Notes: generated by a model from the sequence alone, not told the origin. A stretch of 32,603 nucleotides of DNA from Chitinophaga pinensis (GCA_945885475.1 CAMCYR010000037.1:1-32603); one strand, 5' to 3'. Numbered from the stretch's first letter, positions 1 through 28,811 are shown. Numbers and translations: made by a program.

Positions 1-1094
1 TTATCACCAAGAATTGCTCTAGGTTGATGATTGCTTTCAGCTTTGCTGAATTCTAAAAATAAATTGGTTGATTCTTTATAAAGAATTTTATCTAATTCTT
101 CTATAATTACTTTGTAATTACTATTTGAGCAATTGTAGATATCAATATCAAAGTATTCGTTATATTCGTCTAATACTTTTCCAATTTTTGTTTTATCATT
201 ACTGTAGTAATTATTTTTGGGATTGGTAACAAGCCAATCAATAAATTCAGACTTTATGTTTTGTGGATCTTCAAACTTTACATTTTCTTTCCTATCCACA
301 AAAATTAATTCATCGATTTTATTTTTCTCCTCAGTATCTTTTGTCATTTCAATATATTGCTGATTATTCTTCAATTTCAATAGTAATAAGTAATAGTAAT
401 TACCAAAGTTCAATAGTTTGGGAACCCCAAGAAATTTCAATTCGCGATAATGAATACAGAATTCGTCATAATTGAATATAGTGACATTGAAGAAGTAGTG
501 AGCCTCTAATTGCCATTGCTTATAAAATAAGGGGAAGGATTCCGAATCCTGAGAATTTTTTACAACTGAATAGAAATATGGTAATAATTGAAGAAAGCCT
601 AAACTGCTAGTTAAAAAATTCTTATGAATGCTAGTATCATTGAGGAAGGCACTATAGTTTTTACTTGACTTGATTTCATTGAAAAGTTGGACTATGCTAA
701 TTGTTTCGCCTTTAATTTCTCGACCATCATAAATAGTTATTAGGTGGTTGTTCAAACCTGCCCCACTTGGCGAGGTTCCTCTTAGTACAAAATCAATTCT
801 GTTCGCAAAAACATTTAATCTTTCAATGTCATTTGGCTTAAAAGTATAGTTCGAGTCTTTGAGGTCACGAATAACAGTCTTGATGTGTTCTTTTTCCTCA
901 GAACTTACATTAGCAATTTGGTCTTTTTCAATTCTATTCTCAATGTTAATGTCATTTGGTGAAAAGTCCGTATCTAATTGCAATTTTTTTAAATGAATTT
1001 CATTGAATTCAGAACATAAGTCAGCATAACTAATATTAGCTATTTCAGAACATACATTTTTTAGTTTAATGATTCTATCTTGCTTTATTCCCAT
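1..1094 (-). CDS. Unrecognised cassette protein, 3' end cut off by the window
   Basis: The reading frame is open from ATG at 1094 to the window edge with no stop, giving 364 residues of an unfinished protein. I do not recognise the family. It has no signal peptide or membrane segment; it is rich in Asn, Lys and aromatic residues. The last visible part reads FSKAESNHQPRAILGD and resembles, weakly, the stretch that precedes the ATPase or nuclease part of some McrB-like restriction proteins, but no P-loop lies in the visible part. It is the partial leftmost cassette: the attC-like repeat A starts 26 bp upstream of its start codon. As the other cassettes include nuclease-like genes, a defence role is possible but not shown. 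Confidence 0.8.
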   Translation of the reverse strand, partial: MGIKQDRIIKLKNVCSEIANISYADLCSEFNEIHLKKLQLDTDFSPNDINIENRIEKDQIANVSSEEKEHIKTVIRDLKDSNYTFKPNDIERLNVFANRIDFVLRGTSPSGAGLNNHLITIYDGREIKGETISIVQLFNEIKSSKNYSAFLNDTSIHKNFLTSSLGFLQLLPYFYSVVKNSQDSESFPLFYKQWQLEAHYFFNVTIFNYDEFCIHYRELKFLGVPKLLNFGNYYYLLLLKLKNNQQYIEMTKDTEEKNKIDELIFVDRKENVKFEDPQNIKSEFIDWLVTNPKNNYYSNDKTKIGKVLDEYNEYFDIDIYNCSNSNYKVIIEELDKILYKESTNLFLEFSKAESNHQPRAILGD

Positions 1095-1120
1095 TTTGTT
1101 GTTTCTGTTTTATTAATATT

Positions 1121-1256
1121 GGTGCTAACGGTTTGCGGGTTTAAGAAGTTGGCGATTTCGGAGCACAAAACTGTCAAGCCACCACAAATGTTGATGCGAG
1201 GTAGAATGTTCAATTAACCACTGAACCGCCAATTTCTTAAACCCGCTGTTACAAGC
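1121..1256. repeat. attC-like repeat A
   Basis: Palindromic cassette boundary of 136 bp. Left outer arm GGTGCTAAC (1121-1129), right outer arm GTTACAAGC (1248-1256); these do not pair with each other. The inner arms GCGGGTTTAAGAAGTTGGCG and CGCCAATTTCTTAAACCCGC pair over 20 bp with one mismatch. The right outer arm pairs exactly with the left arm of repeat B. The central loop shares blocks (such as ctgtcaa and taaccactgaac) with repeats C, E and F. Confidence 0.85.
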
Positions 1257-1282
1257 TGCCCTTCTGTCCACCGCTGTTACTG

Positions 1283-1690
1283 TCATAGTCGGATTATATT
1301 AATTGTCCAGTCAATAATTAGTAATGAAAAAAGCAAAAATTTGTATTTGTTACTTATGTCCTGTTTTACAAATTTGAAAAATGTTGTTTGCTGTCTAAAT
1401 ATGTCAACTGTCAACCAAGTTAGAGAAATAATAATTGCTGCCGTAAATGGAATACAAAGAATATTGTATGAAAATGATAACGGAATGTCGCCATTTACTA
1501 ATGCAAGTGTCGCTCGTCCCATACCGCAACCTGGGCAAGGAATACTAGTCGCCAATTTGAATAAACAAAGTGTCTGATGGTTATGATTAGAAAAAGTGTC
1601 CAGTAAAACCAATGCCAAATACCCACCGATTATGAAAATAATAGTCAGCAGATATTTAGCGAAGTAGTTTTGTTGAAGTTTAGTTTGCAA
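1283..1690 (-). CDS. DUF2752 family small membrane protein
   Basis: A 135-residue protein with the DUF2752 signature CPGCGMGRA around residues 52-60, followed by a hydrophobic segment, with further membrane segments at about 12-30, 80-100 and 118-133. The function of DUF2752 is unknown; the paired cysteines suggest metal or redox binding. No ATG is available: an in-frame stop lies a few codons upstream, and the best start is TTG at 1690, which overlaps the end of the TM2 gene by 11 bp, so translation is probably coupled. DUF2752 and TM2 genes are often neighbours in Bacteroidota. Both sit in one cassette between repeats A and B. Confidence 0.8.
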
Positions 1691-2018
1691 TTTGAGTAAA
1701 AATTAGAAAGTTTTTTTCTTTCGTTGCTTTCATTATTAGGAATAAGTCTATAAAAGCCCAAATTCCAACGCCTCCACAAGTGAGCAATTTCCCAACTCCA
1801 AGTCCAGTTTGTCCAAGCATAAATCTGTCAACTCCAAGTCCACCTAAGAAAAGTGATACAATGAGTAATGTTGTTGGACTTTTATATTCGGCAGATTGTA
1901 TTGATAAAAATTTCTTGTCATCAATTTTTTCAAGTTGAGAGTGAATGATGCCAATTCTTTCGCCCGGAAATTTGCTGCCTGTTGTGGCGATAAACATGTC
2001 GATTTTACTTTGTTCCAT
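1680..2018 (-). CDS. TM2 domain-containing membrane protein
   Basis: A 112-residue protein with a soluble N-terminal part (about 1-45) and a TM2 domain: two membrane helices at about 49-67 and 78-97, joined by the typical turn [20 protein letters not shown]. The TM2 family is widespread; its function is poorly known. The start ATG at 2018 is clear. It is the first gene of its cassette and overlaps the DUF2752 gene by 11 bp. Repeat B ends its upstream side. Confidence 0.85.
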
Positions 2019-2162
2019 TTTTATTTTTTTATGTTGTTTGAAATTATTCCAACAATTTAACGACTGTCAGATAAGGTCGGGTCTGATTGTAAAACTATTT
2101 TATTTTATGAAGTGTCTATGTAATTCTTTTGGTTCATTGTCGCTGTGTCGTTTTTTAGGGTT

Positions 2163-2297
2163 GCTTGTAACGGTTTGCGGCTAAAAGAAGTGGCGGCTTT
2201 GGAAAACTAAAATGTCTATACCTACCAAACTTAATTAGTTGTACAACTGTTTATATTCGCACTTCCCCCGCCATTTTTTTTAGGTGCTGTTATGGGC
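2163..2297. repeat. attC-like repeat B
   Basis: Palindromic cassette boundary of 135 bp. Left arm GCTTGTAAC (2163-2171) pairs with the right arm of repeat A; right arm GTTATGGGC (2289-2297) pairs with the left arm of repeat C. The two arms of B do not pair with each other. Inner arms include CTAAAAGAAGTGGCGG and CCGCCATTTTTTTTAG, imperfectly paired. Confidence 0.85.
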
Positions 2298-2302
2298 TGG
2301 TT

Positions 2303-2842
2303 TTATTTTATCATTTTCAATACTTTATTAAAGTCTGTATTAATATCTTCATAGATGCGTTTCATTTCAGCGTTATCTTTTATTTCAGAAGATTTTAAAG
2401 GTGAGTCACCATTGCAATCGTTTGATTTATTCAAAATTTTAATTATATTTTCATTTAAATCATAATATACCCTATACTCATTGCTACAAGCCTCTGACCC
2501 CGAAGATATAAATACAAAGAAAATTTTATTATTTTTTAAATAGTAAATTTTATCACTTATCCATTCATATCCACAAAATTTTGCATGATATGTAATATAA
2601 TCTTTTGAAATATGACAAAGTTCAGCAGTTTGTTCAAATGGCATTTTTTCAGAACTTGGATCAAAACCTTCATAATTAGTCATCTTACCCTTTTTACACT
2701 GTTTCGAAATATTTGAATTACTTAGTTTTGTGACTTCTCCATACATTTTTTTTATTTCCAAAATCCTAGATGAATTATCTTGGGAATAACAGGATGTAAA
2801 AATAGAATTTGCTAAAAAAAAGATAATAATAGAATATTTCAT
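2303..2842 (-). CDS. Cassette-borne lipoprotein of unknown function
   Basis: About 179 residues from ATG at 2842; a longer frame from GTG at 2863 is open, but the ATG places the hydrophobic signal sequence at the N terminus. MKYSIIIFFLANSIFTSC ends in a lipobox cysteine, so the mature protein is probably lipid-anchored. The mature part has several Cys (C-K-K-G, L-C-H, F-C-G-Y, A-C-S-N, D-C-N-G), which may form disulfides. I do not recognise a family. It is the only gene of the cassette between repeats B and C; the stop codon lies 5 bp from the core of repeat B. Confidence 0.75.
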   Translation of the reverse strand: MKYSIIIFFLANSIFTSCYSQDNSSRILEIKKMYGEVTKLSNSNISKQCKKGKMTNYEGFDPSSEKMPFEQTAELCHISKDYITYHAKFCGYEWISDKIYYLKNNKIFFVFISSGSEACSNEYRVYYDLNENIIKILNKSNDCNGDSPLKSSEIKDNAEMKRIYEDINTDFNKVLKMIK

Positions 2843-2986
2843 TTTGTTTTGCGTAGTCGCCACTTTTGTTTAATTATTGTCCGTTTTTTTAGAGTGGGTT
2901 CTGGTCTCCACTTTTTAATCTTTATCTTCTGTCACTCTGGGTGTTCAGCCCTTTAGCTTTCGCAGAACGACTTATTTTTTAAACTT

Positions 2987-3122
2987 GCCCATAACGTTTT
3001 GCAGCTACCCGAAGGGCGGGACTTTTACCACAAAACTTGATTTGAAAAACTAATGTTTGATTAACCACTAAACTGTCTTTGGAACACGAAACCCCGCCTT
3101 TTGGGTAGGTGCTGTTACAAGC
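2987..3122. repeat. attC-like repeat C
   Basis: Palindromic cassette boundary of 136 bp. Left arm GCCCATAAC (2987-2995) pairs with the right arm of B; right arm GTTACAAGC (3114-3122) pairs with the left arm of D. Inner arms CTACCCGAAGGGCGGG and CCCGCCTTTTGGGTAG pair with few mismatches although their sequence differs from the inner arms of A, which is covariation. Confidence 0.85.
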
Positions 3123-3192
3123 TGCCCTTCTCTCTGTCGTGGTTTGTCTGTCCTCTGTGACGCTTTGTCTGTGCTGCTGCATGGGCTGAAAT

Positions 3193-5400
3193 TTATTCTA
3201 TTACTCTATCAAATATTCCAACTACACTAAAGGTTTTTTCATTTATTGCATTTGGGTCAATTACAATATCTTGATATGAAGCGTCAAATGACTTTGGTTT
3301 CAGAATTATTTTTTCATGGTGCCAACTTTCTTCGTCAATAGCTTTTTGACTGTAATATTCCTTGAATGTATAACAAGAACCATAATCTAAATCTTGATGG
3401 TCGTAATACTCGGCAATGACCATTAAGCCATTTCTACTGCCGCCAGTATACCTTTTAAACAAAGCTATTTGACCATCTTGTACTATTTTGTTCATGGAGT
3501 TGCCAATTATTTTGCACGCAAAATGGTCTTGTGTAATTTTTATGCCATCAGGAACTACAATGAATTTTTCTTCAGGGATACTCTCATTAAATTTGAATTC
3601 ACCGGCAGCCACTTTTAAGGAGTATAATGGCACACTATTTTCAAACGGAATTAATTTAATTTCTTTTGACTCAGCTATCTCAATTATTGGGTTTTTATTT
3701 TCCTTGAATAAATAAATATGCTTTCTAAAATAATTTCTTAAATTTTCGTCACACACATAAATATAGCAACCTAATATGCCTCTGAGCAAAATAGTTTTGT
3801 AAATATTTACTACATAGTTTTTCAATATTGCGTTATCTCTTATTGTTGCAGTTCCATTTCTGTCTCTATAATTTTCTTTGACTATCTCTATTTCTTTTGA
3901 TATTGGATTGTATATTATTTCGGGTCCAAAAATTATTGCTGCATAATTGAGGTCATAACCTTGAGTGGTATGAATACAACCTACCTCTTGTGCATCAATA
4001 TCAGAATTGATGTAATCAATTGCAGTTGAGTTCCATTTTAGTTTAATATTTTCTATTTCTATATCATATGCATCAGGGTCATTCTGACTTATCCATGGCC
4101 AAGCGTAGCCAGCAATGAATCTTGAAAGCTGATGTTTTTCGTTCTTTTCTCTAAGTTCATTTACGAAATCAGAAAAATTCTCAAAAAGCAGCAAGTCATA
4201 ATTAATATCATTGTATTTGAACTCTTTATTCTTAAAAGTATTGTCTAATAAATTATTAACAAAATCAACAAACCCATTGCCACCTTTTACTCTGAACTGT
4301 GAATGTAATTTGACATTTATAGAGTTAGAAGCATTTTTTAAATTTTCAAAATCAACAGCATCAACATCAGATGGTTTGATAGATTGTTTAGCATCATAAA
4401 AATATAATACTTTATTTGACCTTAATTGAGTCCAAGCTAATTCCGAAGTGTTTAGTTTATCTAGTTTTAGTGCGTTACAAACCCTGTCATAAATTTTGAA
4501 GTATGGACCAAGATTCACTCTTTTTCTCAAACGATGAGATTCGTCCACAAATAGAATATCATATGATTCATATTCCAGATCTGAAGGGCCAATAACAAGA
4601 TTAGAATTTAAGCCATTAATGTTTCGAAAAACTTTTTTAATAGTTTTTCGAAAAGAACCCATTGCTATAACCAAACCCATTTTAGGATTGGGAAACTTTA
4701 TCTTTAATTGTTTTACCTTATCTACAAATTCTTTTTCGTCTTCAACGAATTCTCTATAATTAAAATCCTCGTCAGAAGTTAGCATTAACTTAAAAATAAA
4801 AATAGCAAGTATGGTTTTACCAGTGCCTGCGCCTCCTTCTACCAATATTGATTTTTTATTTTCAGATAGAAGCGCGTCAATTATTAGCATCAAATTCTTT
4901 CTTTGGTCGGCAGATAAGGTCTTATAGGGTGAATACTTAAACAAGTCGCTATTTGAGATATGTTCTAAACTATGCTGGGCAAGTCCGTTACTTATAAGAC
5001 CATTCCAAATATTTTTAAACATGTCCCAATAAAACTCATCTCTTTGATAATAAGAGTGATTTACCAATCCTAAATTGCCATTTAATAATTTGTATTTGCC
5101 ATCAGCATGTAAATATTTTATTAAATTGGATTCAATATCTAACGTAACCGATTTGTTGAATTTTCTACTCGAAATTAAGTGAGCTTCTTGTAAATGGCTT
5201 TTGCTTGGTGTTTGTAGATGTGCGAAAATTCGAGAATTAGTATCAATGGTTTCACCAACATAGGCTTGACTTACACCATTGTTATTTAAAATATATACGA
5301 CAGGCCAATTTTCGCTTACAAAATATTGTGATTGAATAGAATTCAATCCATTATTATTGAACGCAATCTTATTTATTTCAAAATCTAGGTTATAGTTCAT
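3193..5400 (-). CDS. GIY-YIG nuclease / DUF2075-like SF1 helicase / LexA-type S24 peptidase fusion
   Basis: A 735-residue three-part protein. Residues about 34-62 carry a GIY-YIG nuclease core (VYILNNNG...AYVGET). Residues about 165-550 form a superfamily 1 helicase-like ATPase of DUF2075 type: Walker A GGAGTGKT (189-196), Walker B ILFVDESH (282-289), SQFR (367-370), HTTQGYDLNYAAIIFGPE (477-494) and an arginine motif near 536-547. Residues about 591-690 resemble the S24/LexA peptidase fold: VAAGEF (597-602) looks like the LexA self-cleavage site, GNSM gives the Ser nucleophile (S635), and YTFKEYYS holds the likely Lys (K680). It overlaps the upstream pyrophosphohydrolase gene by 11 bp. GIY-YIG plus DUF2075 proteins are often linked to phage defence; self-cleavage as a switch is my inference. 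Confidence 0.85.
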   Translation of the reverse strand: MNYNLDFEINKIAFNNNGLNSIQSQYFVSENWPVVYILNNNGVSQAYVGETIDTNSRIFAHLQTPSKSHLQEAHLISSRKFNKSVTLDIESNLIKYLHADGKYKLLNGNLGLVNHSYYQRDEFYWDMFKNIWNGLISNGLAQHSLEHISNSDLFKYSPYKTLSADQRKNLMLIIDALLSENKKSILVEGGAGTGKTILAIFIFKLMLTSDEDFNYREFVEDEKEFVDKVKQLKIKFPNPKMGLVIAMGSFRKTIKKVFRNINGLNSNLVIGPSDLEYESYDILFVDESHRLRKRVNLGPYFKIYDRVCNALKLDKLNTSELAWTQLRSNKVLYFYDAKQSIKPSDVDAVDFENLKNASNSINVKLHSQFRVKGGNGFVDFVNNLLDNTFKNKEFKYNDINYDLLLFENFSDFVNELREKNEKHQLSRFIAGYAWPWISQNDPDAYDIEIENIKLKWNSTAIDYINSDIDAQEVGCIHTTQGYDLNYAAIIFGPEIIYNPISKEIEIVKENYRDRNGTATIRDNAILKNYVVNIYKTILLRGILGCYIYVCDENLRNYFRKHIYLFKENKNPIIEIAESKEIKLIPFENSVPLYSLKVAAGEFKFNESIPEEKFIVVPDGIKITQDHFACKIIGNSMNKIVQDGQIALFKRYTGGSRNGLMVIAEYYDHQDLDYGSCYTFKEYYSQKAIDEESWHHEKIILKPKSFDASYQDIVIDPNAINEKTFSVVGIFDRVIE

Positions 5401-5719
5401 CGTACTTTTTTGATGTTCCCTTTGCTTTGTCTACAGGATATTTTTCTCCATTTGTTTTGATTTTGTCCAAGACAATTTCTTTAACATCGAATCCATATTT
5501 CTCAGCTAGTAAAAAGGCAAATGAAAAAATATCGGCAAGTTCCTCCTTTACCTTTTCAGAATTTGCATCGTCTGCTTTCTTCCAAAGAAATAATTCTAAA
5601 AGCTCAGCAGATTCAATGCTTATAGCTAATGCCAAATCTTTTGGATTGTGGAATTGTTCCCAATCTCTTTCATTTCTGAATTTTAAAAGTGCTTGTATTA
5701 TTTCTTCGCTTTCTTTCAT
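5390..5719 (-). CDS. MazG-like nucleotide pyrophosphohydrolase
   Basis: A 109-residue all-alpha NTP pyrophosphohydrolase of the MazG / RS21-C6 (DCTPP1-like) type. The metal-binding acidic residues are visible in two helices: IESAELLELFLW (E36, E39) and EELADIFSF (E60, D63). The family hydrolyses (d)NTPs or modified nucleotides to monophosphates and pyrophosphate. It is the first gene of the cassette between repeats C and D and overlaps the helicase fusion gene by 11 bp, so the two are probably made together. That pairing suggests nucleotide depletion or sensing as part of a defence module; this is inference. Confidence 0.88.
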   Translation of the reverse strand: MKESEEIIQALLKFRNERDWEQFHNPKDLALAISIESAELLELFLWKKADDANSEKVKEELADIFSFAFLLAEKYGFDVKEIVLDKIKTNGEKYPVDKAKGTSKKYDEL

Positions 5720-5760
5720 TTTTAATATAATTTAAAAGTTGCTAGTGTTTCTTTAGGGTT

Positions 5761-5941
5761 GCTTGTAACGTTTGAGGCTAAACGATGTGCGGTATAGAAA
5801 GCACTTCAATGTCTAGCCGCACGAATTTAATTAATATTACTATCAGTTATGGCAAGCGCCAACAAAAAGTTTACACCGATGAAAAAATGCGCTTGCAACT
5901 TGCAGGTCCCACCGCATATTCGTTTAGCCTGTGTTAGCGGT
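5761..5941. repeat. attC-like repeat D (longest)
   Basis: Palindromic cassette boundary of 181 bp. Left arm GCTTGTAAC (5761-5769) pairs with the right arm of C; right arm GTTAGCGGT (5933-5941) pairs with the left arm of E. Inner arms GGCTAAACGATGTGCGG and CCGCATATTCGTTTAGCC pair imperfectly. The loop is longer than in the other copies and unrelated to them in sequence. Confidence 0.8.
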
Positions 5942-5947
5942 TCGGCT

Positions 5948-6931
5948 TTATTTTCTTTTTTGAGTTTCGTCTCGCGCATCTTGAATTGTTTTACTTGTCA
6001 ATAAAAGGTCAAGTGCTGACCAAACTCTCATACTTCTAACTATTTTTTTTCCCGCTTTTACTTCGTGTGCAGGTCGCATTGCTGCTCCTAAATGATACAA
6101 GTAATGCGGACTCCAAGTTTGTTTTGGAGCTCCCGTAAAATGAAGTGTCGGGTCTGTAAACACTTCGTATTTGTCAATGTGATGAATACTTTGAAGTTTA
6201 CCGTTGTAACGAAATGCAATGTAGTTCGGTGGTTCTGCTGGCCAACCGCCTTTGCTTCCGCCAACTGGGTGAAAGTATTTTGAATGATTGTTTACGATGT
6301 CTTGCCACGAGATAGTCCATTTGTCTGGTGTGCCGCTACCAAGCGAAACAACGTAAACCATATTGCTGTCAATTTTTTGCATACTGCTGATTTTGTTAAG
6401 ATAAATACTTAGTTCCTTTAAAAGTCTGTTTTCTGCATCACGTCCGATTGACTTTGAAGAAGAAGAGATTTTCTCAAGGTCGTTCCACGAAATTACTTCA
6501 ACAGGAATTTTCCGAATATCTTTAATGCCAAAGTGTGTTTTGGTATATGCAGGAATACTTTCATTAAAAATAACAATTCTTTTGTCTTTCGCTGTTGATG
6601 AAACAAACGTTGGTCTAGTTGCATATTTGTCAAGTTGGTCTTTTGTCGGAAAAACCCAACCACGTTTCGCTTCAATTATTATGTGAAATTCGTTGTCTTG
6701 AATGATTTCAAAGTCAGTAAAGCCTTTGTCTTTTTCGTGTGCTTGAAGTCTAATTTTTATCTTGTCAGGTTCATATGGCGTTTTGATTTTCAAATGTTGT
6801 AAGAACTTTTGAAGAAACGTTTTGCAATTCCCAAAGGCGTATCCAACACTATAAGAGATGTCGTTTTCTTTTTGTCCAAGTAGTTGAAAAATACTTTCAA
6901 TCTTGTCGTTAAATATGTATAAGTCCGCCAT
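5948..6931 (-). CDS. PD-(D/E)XK nuclease-like cassette protein
   Basis: A 327-residue soluble protein from ATG at 6931. Residues about 65-90 show a PD-(D/E)XK nuclease core: KGFTDFEI (D73) followed by a strand FHIIIEAKRGW with the E87-X-K89 motif. The rest, including the C-terminal half (about 195-327) with a conserved-looking segment around PHYLYHLGAAMRPAHE, I cannot assign. It stands alone in its cassette between repeats D and E; its stop codon lies 6 bp from the core of D. A restriction-like or defence function is plausible from the fold; the target is unknown. Confidence 0.75.
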   Translation of the reverse strand: MADLYIFNDKIESIFQLLGQKENDISYSVGYAFGNCKTFLQKFLQHLKIKTPYEPDKIKIRLQAHEKDKGFTDFEIIQDNEFHIIIEAKRGWVFPTKDQLDKYATRPTFVSSTAKDKRIVIFNESIPAYTKTHFGIKDIRKIPVEVISWNDLEKISSSSKSIGRDAENRLLKELSIYLNKISSMQKIDSNMVYVVSLGSGTPDKWTISWQDIVNNHSKYFHPVGGSKGGWPAEPPNYIAFRYNGKLQSIHHIDKYEVFTDPTLHFTGAPKQTWSPHYLYHLGAAMRPAHEVKAGKKIVRSMRVWSALDLLLTSKTIQDARDETQKRK

Positions 6932-6976
6932 TTATTTCTGATGTTTAATTGTCGTTTGCAGGCACGTCCTAAGCTG

Positions 6977-7112
6977 ACCGCTAACGTTTTGCAGATTGGC
7001 GATGGGCGGGCTTTTTAGTACAAAAGTTAGTTCGGAGAACTGAACTTTCTGCTACCACAAAACTGTCAAGCGGAGACGAAAACCCGCCTATTGCCAATGT
7101 GCTGTTATGGGC
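6977..7112. repeat. attC-like repeat E
   Basis: Palindromic cassette boundary of 136 bp. Left arm ACCGCTAAC (6977-6985) pairs with the right arm of D; right arm GTTATGGGC (7104-7112) pairs with the left arm of F. Inner arms ATTGGCGATGGGCGGG and CCCGCCTATTGCCAAT pair well with few mismatches. Confidence 0.85.
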
Positions 7113-7117
7113 TGGTT

Positions 7118-8296
7118 TTATTGTTTAATTATTTTGAACACTTGTTTCTTATTTTCTCCAATACTCAACGCATAAATTCCACCGGTTAAATTTCCCATTT
7201 CTATAATTGTATTCTCATAATTTATAAATCCAGATAAAATGGCTTTACCTAAATTGTCATAGATAGTATATGCCGTTCCAATAATTTTACAATCTGATTT
7301 TACATTGATTTGATGTGTGGTTGGATTCGGAAAAAGAGAAATTGCATTTTTTACATCAAAATCAGAAATGTCGGTAGATAAATTCAGATTAGAAAGCGCA
7401 AAACGAAATACCCCTTGTGCATTGGTAGCTGCAATTATGTAATTGTCGTTAAGTTCTAAATCAAAAATAGTCAAATCAGTTAAACCAGTATTGATTGCTG
7501 TCCAATTATTGCCATTATCTGTTGAGTAAAAAACACCTGCGCCAAAAGAGCCAGCAACAATTAACTGTGAGTTGCTGGCAAATCCCCTATAAGATCCTGA
7601 TGCAAGCCCTCCTCCCAATAATGTCCAATTTGCACCAAAATCTGTAGAGCGATAAACGCCTGTTCCAATTTGTCCACCAGCGAAAAGTATGTTTCCTTTG
7701 CTTTCTATGGCTCTAAAATTTGTAGAACCGCCTAAGCCATTATTAATTGGAATCCAGTTAGCTCCCCAATCAATACTTTTATAAATACCAGCGCCATTTG
7801 TTCCAACAAATAATGTGTCATTTATTGCTGTAATGCATCTTACATCTGTTGTTGATAAACCTGCTGCACTCCAATTATCTCCTTGGTTAGTTGACATAAA
7901 AACACCAGTTGGTCCTACATAAAACAATCTTGTGCCTGCATTTAATATTCCGCCTCCTAGTAAATTGATTAATCCAACACTTTTAGAAACCCAAGTTGCT
8001 CCATTGTCTGAGCTTCTAAAAGCACCTTGACTTGTGCAAGTATATATATAATTGTTATCCTTTGTAAAACCTCTTGTAGGACCAACATTGTCATTTCCGG
8101 TATTTGATAATGAATAATTTGCTGCACTATCAATGGAAAGGTAAGCTCCAGTTTGTCCTCCTGCAAAATTGTAGATGCCATTTGTTAATAATGACTGCAT
8201 ATTTAATCCAGCCGTTCCTGCAGATTGTTGCCATTGGCCATAAGCTGAAACGCTTAAGCAACAGAAAAAAAGAAATTGTAATGTTATTTTTTTCAT
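7118..8296 (-). CDS. Secreted BNR/sialidase-like repeat protein with type IX sorting domain
   Basis: A 392-residue exported protein. Residues 1-20 are a signal peptide (ending SAYGQ). The middle carries about six repeats of the form S-x-D-x-G-x-N-W (for example SIDWGANW, STDFGANW, STDNGNNW), as in BNR / Ycf48-like beta-propellers. The C terminus (about 318-392) is a type A type IX secretion sorting domain: LFPNPTTHQINV, then TIYDNLGKAIL and the end KQVFKIIKQ. It is therefore probably secreted or anchored on the cell surface. It is the only gene of the cassette between repeats E and F. Propellers of this kind bind ligands or act as scaffolds; no enzyme active site is evident. Confidence 0.88.
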   Translation of the reverse strand: MKKITLQFLFFCCLSVSAYGQWQQSAGTAGLNMQSLLTNGIYNFAGGQTGAYLSIDSAANYSLSNTGNDNVGPTRGFTKDNNYIYTCTSQGAFRSSDNGATWVSKSVGLINLLGGGILNAGTRLFYVGPTGVFMSTNQGDNWSAAGLSTTDVRCITAINDTLFVGTNGAGIYKSIDWGANWIPINNGLGGSTNFRAIESKGNILFAGGQIGTGVYRSTDFGANWTLLGGGLASGSYRGFASNSQLIVAGSFGAGVFYSTDNGNNWTAINTGLTDLTIFDLELNDNYIIAATNAQGVFRFALSNLNLSTDISDFDVKNAISLFPNPTTHQINVKSDCKIIGTAYTIYDNLGKAILSGFINYENTIIEMGNLTGGIYALSIGENKKQVFKIIKQ

Positions 8297-8373
8297 TTTA
8301 GATATTTTATTAAGTTTTTTTAAGACTAATTCCCTATCAAATAGTTTAATTTAGTTTGTGATTTTTCAAACTT

Positions 8374-8509
8374 GCCCATAACGGTTTGCAGCTACAAGAA
8401 GTTGGCGATTTCGAAGCACTAAACTGTCTGCCAGCACAAAACTTGATACGAAGCACAAAGCTTCATTTAACCACTGAACCGCCAATTTCTTGTAGGTGCT
8501 GTTATGTGC
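8374..8509. repeat. attC-like repeat F
   Basis: Palindromic cassette boundary of 136 bp. Left arm GCCCATAAC (8374-8382) pairs with the right arm of E; right arm GTTATGTGC (8501-8509) pairs with the left arm of G. Inner arms CTACAAGAAGTTGGCG and CGCCAATTTCTTGTAG pair with one mismatch. Close to A in loop sequence, different in the stem. Confidence 0.85.
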
Positions 8510-8528
8510 TGCCCTTTTTTCCTGCATA

Positions 8529-9659
8529 TCATTCTTTAATTAATTTAATCATTTCGCTGTCAACTTTCAGGAAGTAAACACCCTTTGTCAAATTTGAAAA
8601 ATCTGTTTGCTCAATTTTTGACCCCCTCCAGATTATCTGCCCAATTGAATTTAATAAAATATAGTTTTCCAAACCTATTGTGTTTGTCAAATTGATTTTG
8701 TCAGTAAAAGGGTTGGGATATACTTTCAAGTTTACCTTTTCGGGAATATTATTAATTCCTGATGTCAAGCATGTGGTTGTATAATTCTGAAAGAATTGCC
8801 ACATTAAATATGTTGCACTAAACTGATTGCTAACTGTTACCCCTCCTGTTGCTTGTCCTCCAGGCCAAGAGTGTTCACCGTCATAACTCACATATTGTTC
8901 AATAATCGAGTTGCATGAACAACTTGAATATTTTAAGTGGTCATATTGGCTGACATTGTGATATAATGTATCTTTCAATATAGTGCAATTATAATTTGAA
9001 CTGATTATATTGAACATACTGTCTTGAGGAGGGAAATAAGTTCCTGTTGCCCCAACTGTTACACCACCAAAATACTTTACATTCAGGTCTAAATAGGAAT
9101 GAAAACTTATAATTGGAATAGCTCTCGATGGACTCCAAGGATAATACATTAAATCACCTGCTACTGGAGCAATTGCAGCGAATCTGTGTGTTAATTGATT
9201 TGCAAGTCTGTAACAAAGCAATGAACCATTAGAAAAGCCAGTTGCATAAACACGAGTTGTATCAATTGGCCTTGTTGAAAATAGGTTATTCAATAATGAA
9301 TTTACAAACCCGACATCGTCAATATTTAGTGTAGTTGCAGGAGCACAACAGCCACCGGCATTCCAAGTCCTATTACCTGCAACCTTTACGCCTTCAGGGT
9401 AAACCACTATAAAGTTTGAAGTGTCTGCTTTTTGGGATAGGCCAGATTGAAATTGAATTGATTGATAACCCAGAGGACTACCTCCGTGAAAAGCCAAGAC
9501 TAATGGATAGTTTGTCGAAGCATTATAACCTGTAGGAAGATGTGTTAAATATGTCCGCCATCGACCACCAACATATATGCTGTCGTAAACGTTTGTTTGT
9601 CCAAATGAGAGATTGCTCACTAAAAGAAGCAATGTAATTTGTAATAATACCTTCTTCAT
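8529..9659 (-). CDS. Secreted PHB-depolymerase/LpqC-type esterase with type IX sorting domain
   Basis: A 376-residue exported alpha/beta hydrolase. The signal peptide ends near residue 20 (LSFGQ). The oxyanion region is AFHGGSPLG (57-64); the nucleophile elbow is GFSNGS (S143); the acid is probably D191 (SYLDLNVKY) and the base H263 (DGEHSWPGG). This pattern fits the LpqC / feruloyl esterase / polyhydroxybutyrate depolymerase group, which hydrolyses ester bonds in polymers or plant cell walls. Residues about 310-376 are a type IX sorting domain (VYPNPFTDKINL). It is alone in the cassette between repeats F and G. The exact substrate cannot be told. Confidence 0.88.
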   Translation of the reverse strand: MKKVLLQITLLLLVSNLSFGQTNVYDSIYVGGRWRTYLTHLPTGYNASTNYPLVLAFHGGSPLGYQSIQFQSGLSQKADTSNFIVVYPEGVKVAGNRTWNAGGCCAPATTLNIDDVGFVNSLLNNLFSTRPIDTTRVYATGFSNGSLLCYRLANQLTHRFAAIAPVAGDLMYYPWSPSRAIPIISFHSYLDLNVKYFGGVTVGATGTYFPPQDSMFNIISSNYNCTILKDTLYHNVSQYDHLKYSSCSCNSIIEQYVSYDGEHSWPGGQATGGVTVSNQFSATYLMWQFFQNYTTTCLTSGINNIPEKVNLKVYPNPFTDKINLTNTIGLENYILLNSIGQIIWRGSKIEQTDFSNLTKGVYFLKVDSEMIKLIKE

Positions 9660-9703
9660 ATTTTTATATTTCTAAATCGTTATTATGCTGTTGTCGTAGG
9701 GTT

Positions 9704-9764
9704 GCACATAACGGTTTGCGTATAAGAGCCGTTTTTTCAATGGCTTTTATACGCTGTTATAAGC
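9704..9764. repeat. attC-like repeat G (shortest)
   Basis: Compact cassette boundary of 61 bp. Left arm GCACATAAC (9704-9712) pairs with the right arm of F; right arm GTTATAAGC (9756-9764) pairs with half-site H. Inner arms GCGTATAAGAGCC and GGCTTTTATACGC pair with one mismatch around a short loop. It lacks the large central loop of the other copies and so shows the minimal site. Confidence 0.85.
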
Positions 9765-9797
9765 TGGGGCGGTTACTTAACTAAAAATATAAATAGA

Positions 9798-9986
9798 ATG
9801 GAAAACGAAAAAGAATTAACATTAATGCCATACGGAAAACATAATGGTATATTAATTTATTGTAAGAATTGTGGAACTGAATTTGAGGAAACGGCTGATG
9901 GGCATTATCCACCAATAAAATACGAAAGAGATAAACACAATAGGGAGTGTAGAATATGCCTAACTGAATTAGGAACATTTTCTTAG
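9798..9986 (+). CDS. Small zinc-binding-type cassette protein
   Basis: A 62-residue protein from ATG at 9798 with two CxxC pairs, YCKNCGTEF (about 22-30) and ECRICLTEL, that could bind one zinc ion as a ribbon. I do not recognise a family. It fills the 288-bp cassette next to the integrase. It is the only cassette gene on the plus strand, against the direction of the array, so it needs its own promoter or is silent. The fit to the cassette limits and the two CxxC pairs support a real gene. Confidence 0.65.
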   Translation: MENEKELTLMPYGKHNGILIYCKNCGTEFEETADGHYPPIKYERDKHNRECRICLTELGTFS

Positions 9987-9991
9987 CCCTT

Positions 9992-10070
9992 GCTTATAAC
10001 TAGTATATACCCGCCATATCATGGCGGTAATCTACCCAATTTGGGGTGTATAGCCGCCATAAGGTGGCGT
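9992..10070. other. Putative attI-like site (half-site H plus direct and inverted repeats)
   Basis: GCTTATAAC (9992-10000) is the exact complement of the right arm of repeat G and so ends the first cassette. Beyond it, the sequence is not a copy of the attC-like palindrome. It holds two 15-bp direct repeats, GTATATACCCGCCAT (10003-10017) and GTGTATAGCCGCCAT (10046-10060), matching at 13 positions, an inverted repeat CCGCCAT-3-ATGGCGG (10011-10027), and a dyad ACCCAATTTGGGGT between them. Class 1 attI also carries direct repeats bound by IntI. Alternatively these dyads could end transcription of the integrase gene, which stops at 10102. Confidence 0.6.
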
Positions 10071-10101
10071 TTATGATTGTACATCAAATCTAATCTTTTT
10101 T

Positions 10102-11214
10102 TTACAGGAAGTCAAATGGCGAGGTAATCTTCTGGATACTTTTGGTGCTCACATGCGTATATATTTCTGTCGTTTTACTCGAGCTATGACCCAGAATTTC
10201 TTGGATATATCGCAGATCCGTGCCATTTTCTAATAAGTGTGTGGCATAGCTGTGTCGCAACCAATGTAGCGTTACAGGCTTTTTTATCCCCGATTTTGCC
10301 AAACTTTGTTTGAGTACATTCTGTAAACTTCGTTCATCATATGGTCTCCCTTCAACGGCCCCTTCAAATAAATATATTTTTGGCTTAAACATATTGAAAT
10401 AGGTGCGCAAAAGTGAAATTGTCTTGTCACTCAAGGGTGCTATTCTGTCCTTTTTTCCCTTCGACTGTTTAATTAACAAAATGTTTCTCTCCGATAATAG
10501 ATGCTCCGGCTTTAATCGCAAAACTTCTCCGCACCGTAATCCGCACGAATATATTAATGACAACATTGCCTGATGTTTTAGATTTTTTGGTGCTGCTAAT
10601 ATTTTTTTTACTTCCTCTTTACTCAATACATTTGGCAATACCCTTTCCCTCTTCGGACGATGGATCAACTCAATGTCAATTTTAATGTTCTGCATCGTCC
10701 TGAAAAATAATTTTATTGCATTTACTACCTGATTCTGATATGATGCTGACAACTTATTTTCTAATATGTATTTATTGTTGAACTCAATAATATCATCGTT
10801 CGTAATTTCTATTATAGCTTTTTTATGAAAATAAATTAAAAATACTTTCAAGGCTTCTGAATAGCTAATAACAGTGCTGTCGCTATATCTGCGCGAAAAC
10901 ATCCATTGTTTAAATTTTTCAATTTTCTGAATCGTTTCAATGTTGAGTAGTTTTTTTTTCTCTAGTAGAGCTTTTTCTTTAGCAACCTTCTCTTTTAATG
11001 CCTGTGGATCAATAGTTGAAATAGAATCAAAAATAGTTTTGATCTCTTTTAAAACATTAATAGAGTAGGGAGCATGCCAGGCTTTCAGACTCTGGCTCCA
11101 GCGGATGCCGGTTATTTTTCTGGCTTCTGTTCCCAGATTCAGATCGTATGGGAATTTTATTAGTACTACTTCTCTCCCTTTATGACGAATTTTGTCAAGC
11201 TTTATAGTTTTCAT
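10102..11214 (-). CDS. Tyrosine recombinase adjoining the cassette array (candidate cassette integrase)
   Basis: A 370-residue tyrosine recombinase. Residues 1-75 form an extra N-terminal domain (with GIRWSQSLKAWHAPYS at about 36-51) seen in many Bacteroidota integrases. An SAM-like core-binding domain follows (about 95-180), then the catalytic domain: R227 (CGLRCGE), K252 (SKGKKDR), H317 and R320 (LHWLRHSY), H343 (LGHSS) and the nucleophile Y352 (EIYTH). The end SPFDFL recalls SPLDAL of IntI1. The extra helix ('patch') of IntI between the second and third motif seems missing: only about 45 residues lie between the strand with K252 and the HxxR box. The gene points into the array and is preceded by the zinc-ribbon gene with a 12-bp gap. 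That it moves these cassettes is inferred from position. Confidence 0.93.
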   Translation of the reverse strand: MKTIKLDKIRHKGREVVLIKFPYDLNLGTEARKITGIRWSQSLKAWHAPYSINVLKEIKTIFDSISTIDPQALKEKVAKEKALLEKKKLLNIETIQKIEKFKQWMFSRRYSDSTVISYSEALKVFLIYFHKKAIIEITNDDIIEFNNKYILENKLSASYQNQVVNAIKLFFRTMQNIKIDIELIHRPKRERVLPNVLSKEEVKKILAAPKNLKHQAMLSLIYSCGLRCGEVLRLKPEHLLSERNILLIKQSKGKKDRIAPLSDKTISLLRTYFNMFKPKIYLFEGAVEGRPYDERSLQNVLKQSLAKSGIKKPVTLHWLRHSYATHLLENGTDLRYIQEILGHSSSKTTEIYTHVSTKSIQKITSPFDFL

Positions 11215-11226
11215 TAATAATAGCGC

Positions 11227-11589
11227 TTATTGATCGGCTGTTTCTTTTCTCTTTACCAAAAAATAATAATCTTTATCTAAAGGCAAGTAGCCATATTCGT
11301 AGCAGAAATAATAATTTGTCCCCTTTTTAGTTGTATATACATTCGTATAAAAACTAAAATTAAATCCTTTCTGTAACAGTTTTGATTTGCTTGCTTTGGA
11401 AGTTTCCTCGGGAATAAGTTCTTCCAGAATTTTATAGTTTTTTCTGAGGGATGAATTTACCGTTCGGTAATATTCGCTTGTTGCGGTTTTTATTTTGTTG
11501 TTGTAACTATTCCGACAAAGATCTGAACAGAACTTTTTGTCGATTCTTCCTTTAAAGGAGTCTCCGCAATCTAAACATACTTTACTCAT
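11227..11589 (-). CDS. Zinc-ribbon protein upstream of the integrase
   Basis: A 120-residue protein with an N-terminal zinc ribbon: CLDCGDSFKGRIDKKFC followed by LC (Cys at 5, 8, 21 and 25), then a helical, basic region and a C-terminal part rich in aromatic residues (NYYFCYEYGYLPLDKDYYFLV). Similar small proteins occur in Bacteroidota without known function; the ribbon suggests nucleic acid binding. It lies 12 bp upstream of the integrase gene, so both are likely one operon. It could be a regulator or helper of recombination; this is inference only. Confidence 0.8.
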   Translation of the reverse strand: MSKVCLDCGDSFKGRIDKKFCSDLCRNSYNNKIKTATSEYYRTVNSSLRKNYKILEELIPEETSKASKSKLLQKGFNFSFYTNVYTTKKGTNYYFCYEYGYLPLDKDYYFLVKRKETADQ

Positions 11590-11673
11590 ACACGTATTTT
11601 AAAAAAATATTAAAAAAATTTCTTTACTAAAAAATGTGCGGAGTATCGTATTTAGTGAAGTAAAGGTAGACTA

Positions 11674-11706
11674 TTTATCCGTACTACCCGTGTATACACG
11701 GATAAA
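11674..11706. promoter_or_regulatory. Nested dyads in the zinc-ribbon/ssb divergent intergenic region
   Basis: Two symmetric elements overlap in the 229-bp space between the divergent genes: TTTATCCGT (11674-11682) with ACGGATAAA (11698-11706), and a perfect 14-bp palindrome CCGTGTATACACGG (11688-11701). A third related stretch, ATATACACG, follows at 11712-11720. Such nested symmetry in a divergent promoter region is typical of operators, but the binding protein is unknown. Confidence 0.5.
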
Positions 11707-12217: not shown

Positions 12218-12255
12218 AAGTCGTCCTCTCTTGGAGTAGAGAGGCGACTTTTTTT
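12218..12255 (+). terminator. Rho-independent terminator of ssb
   Basis: Stem AAGTCG-CCTCTC with GAGAGG-CGACTT around the loop ttggagta, followed by a run of T. It starts 24 bp after the ssb stop codon. Confidence 0.85.
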
Positions 12256-12261
12256 ATTATC

Positions 12262-12721
12262 CTTCCTTAACTTTTGAAGCCAAATTTACATTAGGTGTGT
12301 ATTTAGATTTAATAAGGTTCTCGATACGTTCCTGCGGAACACTCGAACTGACATAGTGATGGGAATAGTACTTGATGTGATCAGGCAAAAAAGAACAAAA
12401 AGGAAATTTGAATTATTATTTTACGAAGAGGCTAATTATAAAAATTCAATTTAAAATTCTCTTCTTTTACTTTTGAAGCCAAAAGTAACAAAAGCTCTTT
12501 TGTTTTATAAGGAAATTGCCTCTTCTCTATCGTTCAGAAGCACCACGGTTAATAGCTGCTAGCCGATTTATAGTCAACAATTAATAATTCTACTGGCAGC
12601 TCTTCCCGCTATTTCTGAATAAAACGAAAAGTCCTACGAGGTTATTTATCTTTCCATACACTATTACAATTCATGACAATCTTTCGGAGCCGCGCGTGAG
12701 GACTGAAAGCATACGATGCCG
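12262..12721. repeat. Non-coding direct repeat, copy 1 (about 460 bp)
   Basis: First of two diverged direct copies. Conserved blocks include a segment with the palindrome GTTCCTGCGGAAC near 12328, then gatgggaatagtacttgatg, a stretch with caaaaaagaacaaaaag, a second occurrence of aacttttgaagccaaaag, the block cagaagcaccacggttaata, and the end gaaagcatacgatgccg. No reading frame of useful length and no RNA gene is recognisable. Function unknown. Confidence 0.8.
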
Positions 12722-12863
12722 TGTAGCGATGTGCGGCTGGGATTATGCTTTCTTGATTTTTTTCGTTCTTTTTTGATCAAGCAAAAAAGAACAAAAAGGA
12801 AATTTAAAATTGGACTTATTGTTTTACAAGTAGGCTAAATATAAAAAATCAGTTTTTAATTCT
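12722..12863. other. Spacer between the two repeats, with a partial third copy
   Basis: The spacer holds an AT-rich dyad (cgttcttttttgatcaagcaaaaaagaac, 12760-12795 region) and repeats the inner segment of the flanking copies (aaaaaggaaatttaaaattgg onwards). No gene is seen. Confidence 0.5.
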
Positions 12864-13330
12864 CTTCTTTAACTTTTGAAGCCAAATTAACAAAAGGAGG
12901 GTATTTAGATTTAATAAGGTTCTCGATACGTTCCTGCGGAACACTCGAACTGACATAGCGATGGGAATAGTACTTGATGTGATCAAGCAAAAAAGAACAA
13001 AAAGAAAGTTTAAAATTGGATTTATTCATTTACAAGTAGACTGAATATAAAAATTCAATTTAAAATTCTCTTCTTTAACTTTTGAAGCCAAAAGTTACAA
13101 AAGCTCTTTTGTTTTATAAGGAAATTGCTTCATCTCTAGCGTTCAGAAGCACCACGGTTAATAGCTGCTAGCCGATTTATAGTCAACAATAAATAATTCT
13201 ACTGGCAGCTCTTCCCGCTATTTCTGAATAAAACGAAAAGTCCTACGAGGTTATTGATCTTACCATACATTGTTACAATTCATGATAATCTTTCGGAGTG
13301 GCGCGTGAGGAATGAAAGCATACGATGCCG
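12864..13330. repeat. Non-coding direct repeat, copy 2 (about 465 bp)
   Basis: Second copy, about 600 bp downstream of the first, with the same order of blocks and scattered point differences (for example gacatagcgatggg for gacatagtgatggg, and ggagtggcgcgtgag for ggagccgcgcgtgag). It ends at the same motif catacgatgccg just before the terminator at 13342. No gene is seen. Confidence 0.8.
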
Positions 13331-27478: not shown

Positions 27479-28810
27479 ATGGAAACAATACCGAAACAAA
27501 AAGTCATTAAACTAAGCGAATTAGTAAAAATAGAACTCATAATTCCAGTTTACCAACGACCATATAAATGGACTGAAAAAAATGTAGTTCAACTTCTAGA
27601 AGATATTTTCGACTACGTAATAGTTAAAAATAAAGATTATCGCATTGGCAATATTATCTTGTACAATGGAAACAAAGAAAATAATCTAGTTGATGGTCAA
27701 CAACGTTTAACAACTATTTCATTATTACTAAAAAAATTAGAAACAACTTTTTCTGGATTGCTACTAAACCAGAATTATAAACACAATATCTCCAAGAATA
27801 ATATTATTTATAATTACCGCATCATTGACAAATGGATAGATACAAAATTTAAAGAGAACGAGGAGAAAAAAGCTGATTTCAAAAGAAAAATTTTGAATAA
27901 ATGTGAATTTGTACTTTTTACAGTATTTCAACAAGACGAGGCTTTTCAACTTTTCGACTCTCAAAATGCAAGAGGTAAAGCCCTTGAACCTTATGACTTA
28001 TTAAAAGCATTTCATTTGCGGGAAATGGATTTTGACAGCGAAGATGATAGAATTAAATGTGTTGAGCGTTGGGAATTATCTGTTGATAATGGAACTTTAA
28101 AACCAATACTAGGTAATCATCTTTTTAAAATACGAAAATGGAGCAAAAATGAATGGAAATATGATTTTACAAAAGATGAAATTGATGAATTTAAAGGCAT
28201 TTCATTGCATCAAAAACAGCAATATCCTTATGAAAGTAAAATGCGAATGCTAGACGGGTTTGTGGAAAATGCTCAGAACGATAAATTTCTGAAAAACCTG
28301 CAAATTGCTCAAACCTTCCCGTTTCAAATTACATTGCCAATAATTAATGGTAAACGCTTTTTTGAATATGTTGATTTTTATATTAAACAACGTGAAAAAT
28401 TATTTGATCTGAACAAAGAAGATGCTATAGAGGCAGAAATGCCTGAATTTATAAAATTCTACAAAGATTATTGCTATGGCTATTTGGGGTGGGAGCGAAG
28501 TGGAGATGGGAAAGTAAGAAATGTTTACGAAAATATTTTAATGGCATTTATTGATAAATATGGCTACGTCGATGATTTTGATAATTTCTACAAAGCATTC
28601 TACAAACTTGCTTACGAAATACGATGCAATTCAATACCAATTAAAATTGAGACAATTAAGAACAGTTCTGCACGACAAATTTTTAGCAAAATAAACGATT
28701 CTGTCAACCCTGATACTTTCAAAAATTATCAGTATAAAAGATATAAAATTAGAGAAGAAAAATTAAGAGTAAATGGTATAAATGAAATTGCAAAATTTAT
28801 TAGTGAATAA
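27479..28810 (+). CDS. DUF262 domain protein (GmrS-like), first of a pair
   Basis: A 443-residue protein with an N-terminal DUF262 domain: IPVYQRPYKWTEKNV (22-36), YRIGNIIL, and the nucleotide-related motif DGQQR (72-76), then FDSQNARGKALEPYDLLKAFHL (about 160-181), the conserved second motif of the family. No C-terminal HNH motif is seen. DUF262 is the NTP-dependent half of GmrSD/BrxU type IV restriction enzymes that attack modified phage DNA. The next DUF262 gene starts 1 bp after the stop codon, so the two genes form an operon. A separate DUF262 partner without nuclease suggests a two-subunit complex (inference). Confidence 0.9.
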   Translation: METIPKQKVIKLSELVKIELIIPVYQRPYKWTEKNVVQLLEDIFDYVIVKNKDYRIGNIILYNGNKENNLVDGQQRLTTISLLLKKLETTFSGLLLNQNYKHNISKNNIIYNYRIIDKWIDTKFKENEEKKADFKRKILNKCEFVLFTVFQQDEAFQLFDSQNARGKALEPYDLLKAFHLREMDFDSEDDRIKCVERWELSVDNGTLKPILGNHLFKIRKWSKNEWKYDFTKDEIDEFKGISLHQKQQYPYESKMRMLDGFVENAQNDKFLKNLQIAQTFPFQITLPIINGKRFFEYVDFYIKQREKLFDLNKEDAIEAEMPEFIKFYKDYCYGYLGWERSGDGKVRNVYENILMAFIDKYGYVDDFDNFYKAFYKLAYEIRCNSIPIKIETIKNSSARQIFSKINDSVNPDTFKNYQYKRYKIREEKLRVNGINEIAKFISE

Positions 28811-28811
28811 C

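Follow-up and report, generated by a model that had tools for sequence, protein, structure and literature searches.

A GIY-YIG nuclease-helicase paired with a MazG-like pyrophosphatase in Bacteroidota bears a predicted self-cleaving LexA-like tail that also occurs on restriction enzymes

Introduction

It has long been asked how restriction-type nucleases spare the damaged cells that produce them. Restriction alleviation of type I enzymes involves degradation of HsdR by ClpXP, through a degron that was not found (PMC4231737), and in E. coli this alleviation is independent of SOS (PMC11109961). SauUSI cuts m5C/hm5C DNA (PMC3874153). Within the S24 family, cleavage competence of Bacteroidetes LexA has been judged by an Ala-Gly bond together with a Ser-Lys dyad (PMC8565304), and cleaved LexA fragments are degraded via latent ClpX signals (PMC9578287, citing Neher 2003). 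Among nucleotide pyrophosphatases, the substrates of DCTPP1 include dCTP and 5-formyl derivatives (PMC7162842), and both RS21-C6/DCTPP1 and the E. coli Nudix protein Orf135 have 5-methyl-dCTP hydrolase activity (PMC10742078).

Here we describe a two-gene module in which a nuclease-helicase ending in an S24-like domain is encoded next to a MazG-like pyrophosphatase. The window, that is, the whole stretch of 32,603 nucleotides that was analysed, corresponds to contig 37 in a draft genome of 3.06 Mb, which was assigned to Bacteroidota on the basis of its relatives. The original prediction for this locus was a mobile, defence-like cassette whose LexA-type domain could respond to DNA damage or phage infection. 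Neither this module nor an S24 tail on a restriction enzyme turned up in the open-access papers that were searched.

Results

Architecture of the gene pair

The MazG-like gene comes first in the pair, and the gene for the 735-residue protein starts 11 bp before its end (Table 1); both ORFs are present and overlap as originally described. The larger product unites a GIY-YIG domain, a DUF2075-type helicase with Walker A and B motifs and an S24-like domain in one chain, an architecture proposed from the sequence at the outset and now borne out by Pfam matches, conservation across 87 homologues and AF2 models. In the helicase, Walker A (GGAGTGKT) occupies residues 189-196 and the Walker B DE residues 286-287; the Walker A lysine and this DE are invariant in the 87 homologues, and the helicase motifs overall are invariant or nearly so. 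The Pfam match to GIY-YIG is weak in the window copy (0.025), and a 52%-identical homologue passes the cut-off (7e-6). All six motif residues of this domain are invariant in the same 87 homologues. The PDB structure closest to its AF2 model (pLDDT 85) is the UvrC GIY-YIG domain, at a probability of 0.96 and a modest E of 0.14, and Slx1 and I-TevI are among the next hits. Judged by its modelled fold and its conserved catalytic Tyr, Arg, Glu and Asn, the N-terminal domain is a predicted GIY-YIG nuclease domain.

Two related loci carry shortened versions. A natural tailless homologue of 563 aa (L043:6645-8336) ends after the helicase and keeps its MazG gene, and a truncated copy (L045:2358-2487 + 2578-3590) consists of MazG and part of the GIY-YIG domain only, with an attC-like site just upstream. 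Residues 301-450 of the large protein belong to its most variable stretches and may help to determine which targets are recognised.

Table 1 Features of the gene pair and its cassette array, with positions in the window.
Feature	Position	Strand	Basis
GIY-YIG + SLFN-g3/DUF2075 helicase + S24 tail protein, 735 aa	3193..5400	-	ORF call, Pfam and conservation
MazG-like (DCTPP1/RS21-C6-type) nucleoside triphosphate pyrophosphatase, 109 aa, first gene of the pair	5390..5719	-	PF12643, 4.5e-20
Predicted GIY-YIG nuclease domain, residues ~30-120 (Y36, Y47/G49, R57, E90, N107 invariant)	5041..5313	-	Conservation, AF2 and Foldseek
SLFN-g3 (DUF2075) helicase domain, residues 183-551	3748..4854	-	PF09848, 1e-53, over cut-off
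LexA/UmuD-like S24 tail, residues 585-735	3196..3648	-	PF00717 and Foldseek
Predicted scissile Ala599-Gly600 bond (V-A-A/G-E-F)	3601..3606	-	A599 and G600 86/86; A598 85/86
Predicted catalytic Ser635 (GNSMN)	3496..3498	-	Invariant 86/86
Predicted catalytic Lys680 (YTFKEY)	3361..3363	-	Invariant 86/86
attC-like site, 3' end of the cassette	2990..3120	+	attC scanner
attC-like site, upstream edge of the pair's cassette (belongs to the neighbouring cassette as its 3' site)	5764..5939	+	attC scanner
Xer/IntI-like tyrosine recombinase beside the attC-like array, without IntI-specific domain	10102..11214	-	Alignment to 2a3v, TIGR02249

The LexA-like tail

Residues 591-667 match Peptidase_S24 (PF00717) at 3.3e-7, over the curated cut-off, and LexA was the sole match of the tail in a sequence profile search. 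The original prediction depended on an S24-like fold of this C-terminal domain, and an AF2 model of residues 572-735 built from 62 homologues (pLDDT 79) retrieved LexA, the RecA-bound lambda repressor (CI) and, lower down, UmuD from the PDB with Foldseek (probability 1.00, best E 2.5e-5). The cleavage-site and dyad residues had been placed exactly: A599, G600, S635 and K680 are identical in all 86 tailed homologues and are among the most conserved positions of the protein, whereas residue 598 is Ala in all but one of them and residue 597 is Val or Ala in most. Because the Ala-Gly bond and the Ser-Lys dyad that mark cleavage-competent Bacteroidetes LexA (PMC8565304) are present throughout this set, we predict that the tail can cleave itself.

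A profile of the tail gave 18 strong matches in 396 Bacteroidota genomes, comprising 10 GIY-YIG-SLFN proteins, five SauUSI-like proteins (1127-1160 aa), two HsdR proteins (~1200 aa) and one match at a contig end, and the same profile revealed no stand-alone copy of the tail in these genomes. The second tailed class has a PLD nuclease-helicase-DUF3427 architecture and is SauUSI-like by its match to PADLOC mREase_IV (type IV) at 1.2e-223; the third is type I HsdR. The AAG sequence, the Ser and the Lys are kept in 7/7 of the SauUSI-like and HsdR tails. Ordinary S24 matches in 61 genomes fell nearly all in ORFs shorter than ~320 aa, the long ones being these fusions only. Two type I HsdR genes (L051:4025-7570 and L052:6036-9584) encode a C-terminal LexA-like tail with VAAG, Ser and Lys kept.

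The pyrophosphatase partner

A MazG gene lies directly upstream in 80/80 loci of the genome scan, three of which have it truncated where the contig begins. The 396-genome sample, which overlaps with that scan, shows this arrangement in 11/11 loci. In most pairs the two genes overlap by 1-14 nt. The closest solved relatives of the small protein are human and mouse dCTP pyrophosphatase 1/RS21-C6 (5.8e-17), and its metal ligands E36/E39/E60/D63 are invariant in 91 homologues. By these ExxE...ExxD ligands and its sequence, it is a predicted pyrophosphatase of the MazG-like/DCTPP1 type. The proposed MazG partnership therefore holds in every one of the 80 loci, and the general change in the nucleotide pool that had been attributed to it is narrowed by the likeness to DCTPP1 to dCTP or 5-modified dCTP.

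The SauUSI-like genes have a partner of their own. A Nudix gene (NudG/MutT-like) lies directly upstream of 8/8 SauUSI-like genes examined in the set L046-L050 and L193-L197, five of them tailed and three untailed, and two other DUF3427 helicases also have a Nudix gene directly upstream. One of these Nudix proteins was compared with solved structures and was closest to 3gwy, a putative CTP pyrophosphohydrolase (1.6e-39), with CTP pyrophosphohydrolase 2rrk also matched.

C5-methyltransferases are encoded by 6/11 carriers and 51/118 background genomes, and none is encoded in the window's own genome. An avoidance of C5-methyltransferase hosts by carriers was thus not seen, and the presence of these enzymes in 6/11 carriers implies that 5-methylcytosine alone cannot be enough to make any DNA a target of the nuclease.

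Cassette array

Seven attC-like sites occur in the window, all within 1124-9762 and none elsewhere in it, compared with 0 in 20 shuffles, and five of the six matches to a strict attC pattern in the whole genome fall in this array. The array ORFs lie on one strand and the neighbours of the pair share its orientation. The pair itself is flanked by two of these sites, which delimit the cassette of ~2.8 kb that had been proposed. A segment that spans 65 aa in the integron integrase 2a3v is 23 aa long in the nearby recombinase, whose comparison with TIGR02249 skips positions 180-237 and scores below the cut-off; this rules out a bona fide IntI. Since the IntI-specific domain is missing, we refer to an integron-like attC cassette array and not to an integron; the original assignment stands for the attC-like sites between same-oriented cassettes but not for the recombinase.

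At related loci, an attC-like sequence recognised by sequence similarity follows the operon in two cases (L065 and L066) and a half site is present in another (L053), and a relaxed attC scan of related loci performed no better than chance. Rfam searches over bases 1-11700 yielded nothing at gathering level. A sub-threshold DUF805 RNA match (31.6 bits vs gathering 51.1) lies at 2862-2916 on the minus strand, upstream of a 186-aa cassette ORF. The neighbouring cassette (5948-6931) encodes a weakly matching PD-(D/E)XK-type protein (PDDEXK_4, E 0.0018, below cut-off). Further along the window, a non-coding repeat block at 12251-13312, between ssb and a 136-aa ORF on the opposite strand, contains copies of ~300 and 171 nt with 89-92% identity, 602-609 nt apart.

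Distribution and transfer

A scan of public genomes returned 390 relatives, spread over many Bacteroidota and some proteobacteria. Of these, 80 were kept, mostly from Bacteroidota but also from Marinobacter, Natronospirillum, Castellaniella and a Neomarinimicrobiota bin. In the 396-genome sample, relatives at any similarity were present in 34 genomes, ~10 of these being full length. Copies with 87-94% protein identity occur under Sphingobacteriales, Flavobacteriales, Saprospiraceae and Chitinophaga names, and their DNA similarity is mostly limited to the two genes, the flanks being different. These closely similar pairs across Bacteroidota families bear out the mobility claimed for the cassette, and sequence comparison indicates that the module is horizontally transferred and recently exchanged. 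Mosaic pairs also occur: at locus L069 mazG is 89.6% identical in DNA and the large gene far more diverged, whereas L059 has the opposite pattern. More broadly, in L069, L072, L059, L060 and L063 mazG has a history separate from that of the large gene, and the helicase segment in the centre of the latter (residues ~301-570) has one of its own.

No relatives were found in viral contigs in two scans, and phage and plasmid records contained no full-length relative; the matches there were mostly GIY-YIG-SLFN or helicase-only proteins, with the S24 tail in one Halomonas replicon. PADLOC analysis of 103 neighbouring ORFs of related loci detected dCTP deaminase (3), SoFic (2), PD-Lambda-2_B (2), type IV restriction, DndC and others, and one locus (L035) adjoins a RADAR-like RdrA/RdrB pair. 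These defence-type neighbours are supportive rather than statistical evidence. Elsewhere in the window (27479-30632) are two adjacent DUF262/GmrSD_N-type genes, a GmrSD/SspE-like and possible type IV restriction pair.

Discussion

Based on these observations, we propose that the pair is a translationally coupled, horizontally exchanged restriction-type module, in which the tail would cleave itself on RecA filaments and thereby shut restriction off, while the pyrophosphatase would sanitise the dCTP pool. We assign this reading a probability of roughly 45%, i.e. somewhat below even odds. A role of the tail in restriction control is favoured because it also ends SauUSI-like and HsdR motors. Given its domains and the restriction enzymes bearing the same tail, the large protein would act as an ATP-driven motor on DNA (or RNA) whose GIY-YIG nuclease cuts foreign nucleic acid, and from the tail and partner logic common to SauUSI-like enzymes we infer type IV (modification-dependent) restriction.

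The first gene product would remove 5-modified dCTP, or dCTP, and thereby probably keep modified cytosines, which the nuclease may recognise, out of the host's new DNA. Such recognition is suggested by the SauUSI-like m5C/hm5C enzymes that are paired with CTP/5-methyl-dCTP-type Nudix proteins. Nucleotide sanitation as self-protection is proposed because nuclease-motors, including one m5C/hm5C-dependent class, have beside them enzymes of two unrelated folds that probably share one activity. A competing view, possible but somewhat unlikely, is that the pyrophosphatase is an effector that uses up dCTP or other dNTPs upon infection, or reduces the level of nucleotides that inhibit the nuclease. 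DCTPP1 hydrolyses plain dCTP too (PMC7162842), so depletion of the dCTP pool could occur; MazG-type domains are predicted, unvalidated defence domains (PMC13092281), and dCTP deaminase genes are among the neighbours. However, the SauUSI-like partner has an unrelated fold, and 5-methyl-dCTP is among the substrates of its E. coli relative too; sanitation accounts better for this coincidence.

With regard to the tail, the intact machinery and the precedent of the S24 family suggest that RecA filaments would stimulate cleavage of Ala599-Gly600 by the Ser635-Lys680 dyad, leaving a nuclease-helicase that ends in (V/A)-A-A-COOH as in cleaved LexA. Owing to this likeness, removal by ClpXP is probable, and we infer that -AA serves as a degron here. 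It may instead reflect S24 catalysis, since -AA also precedes the scissile Gly in ~5/14 readable S24 proteins of the ordinary kind from Bacteroidota, in which the sequence before the Ala is more variable. The outcome would be restriction alleviation built into the enzyme itself, which would be stopped upon damage to host DNA. E. coli restriction alleviation needs no SOS (PMC11109961), so a RecA-coupled tail would be an extra control. Bacteroidota SOS boxes were found upstream of the operon in none of 78 loci, at or below expectation, which is consistent with post-translational control.

The same cleavage machinery could also serve an activating switch, in which RecA filaments induced by phage or damage lead to cleavage that frees an inhibited nuclease-helicase for damage-triggered (abortive) defence. 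UmuD, a structural match to the tail, is activated by cleavage (PMC8565304), and the tailless homologue implies that the protein can be stable in the absence of its tail. That homologue would, however, be always active, the tail is common to HsdR, a class with documented proteolytic shut-off on host DNA (PMC4231737), and cleavage would leave the -AA end of LexA, which is destroyed after cleavage. We therefore regard activation as unlikely and lean towards shut-off over release of the nuclease.

S24 domains dimerise. A tail that merely mediates dimerisation or partner docking, with cleavage absent or unimportant, might suit double-strand cutting by GIY-YIG domains, but it is an improbable explanation given that all three enzyme classes keep Ala-Gly, Ser and Lys without exception, residues that dimerisation does not need. 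A DNA-repair or housekeeping module would accommodate a helicase, a GIY-YIG domain and a damage-sensing domain beside a relative of the house-cleaning enzyme DCTPP1 (PMC7162842), but is hardly probable in view of the patchy distribution (34/396 genomes, ~10 full length), the 87-94% identity between families with unrelated flanks, the location in a cassette array, the tail common to restriction enzymes and the defence-type neighbours.

Extending the shut-off reading beyond this locus, we tentatively suggest that one LexA-type tail subfamily is a portable RecA-operated off-switch, in which autocleavage exposes a ClpX degron, on three unrelated classes of restriction motor. Two of these classes would be paired with unrelated pyrophosphatases that remove 5-modified dCTP and so spare the host attack as modified DNA. 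The module suggests an unreported route by which restriction-type enzymes could be switched by damage to the cell's own DNA. If this is true, a self-cleaving LexA-like tail in three restriction classes would be a direct and genetically simple answer, for these enzymes, to how the damaged host is spared. The repeated association with probable modified-dCTP hydrolases from two unrelated families would add nucleotide sanitation as self-protection for modification-dependent defence.

Comparison with known systems

The tail shares its fold, Ala-Gly scissile bond and Ser-Lys dyad with LexA, lambda CI and UmuD. Those proteins control a DNA-binding repressor domain or a polymerase subunit, whereas the tail described here sits on a nuclease-helicase and forms a distinct S24 subfamily, with restriction-type motors as its only carriers in 396 genomes. 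The small protein aligns over its full length with DCTPP1/RS21-C6 and has the RDWEQFH, ExxE and ExxD motifs in common with it, but unlike DCTPP1 it is bacterial and operon-locked with a nuclease-helicase. As in an integron cassette with a defence gene, attC-like sites flank the pair and its neighbours have the same orientation; the site core here is TAAC...GTTA, compared with the canonical integron RYYYAAC/GTTRRRY. Nhi (nuclease-helicase immunity) has a related helicase (PADLOC Nhi, 7.3e-13). This match is restricted to part of the helicase, which rules out Nhi as a full-length identity, and the GIY-YIG domain, S24 tail and pyrophosphatase partner are additions relative to Nhi.

HsdR resembles the large protein in being a motor-nuclease that needs restraint on host DNA, and some Bacteroidota HsdR proteins bear the same tail, whereas canonical type I restriction alleviation works without an S24 domain and does not belong to the SOS functions (PMC11109961). 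SauUSI-type IV enzymes are likewise single-chain nuclease-motors whose Bacteroidota members can bear this S24 tail, although the 953-residue SauUSI-type model stops before it. They combine a PLD nuclease, an SF2 helicase and a DUF3427 recognition domain and have a Nudix pyrophosphatase gene directly upstream, whereas the module described here has GIY-YIG and SLFN-g3 domains, no DUF3427 and a MazG-like gene in the upstream position.
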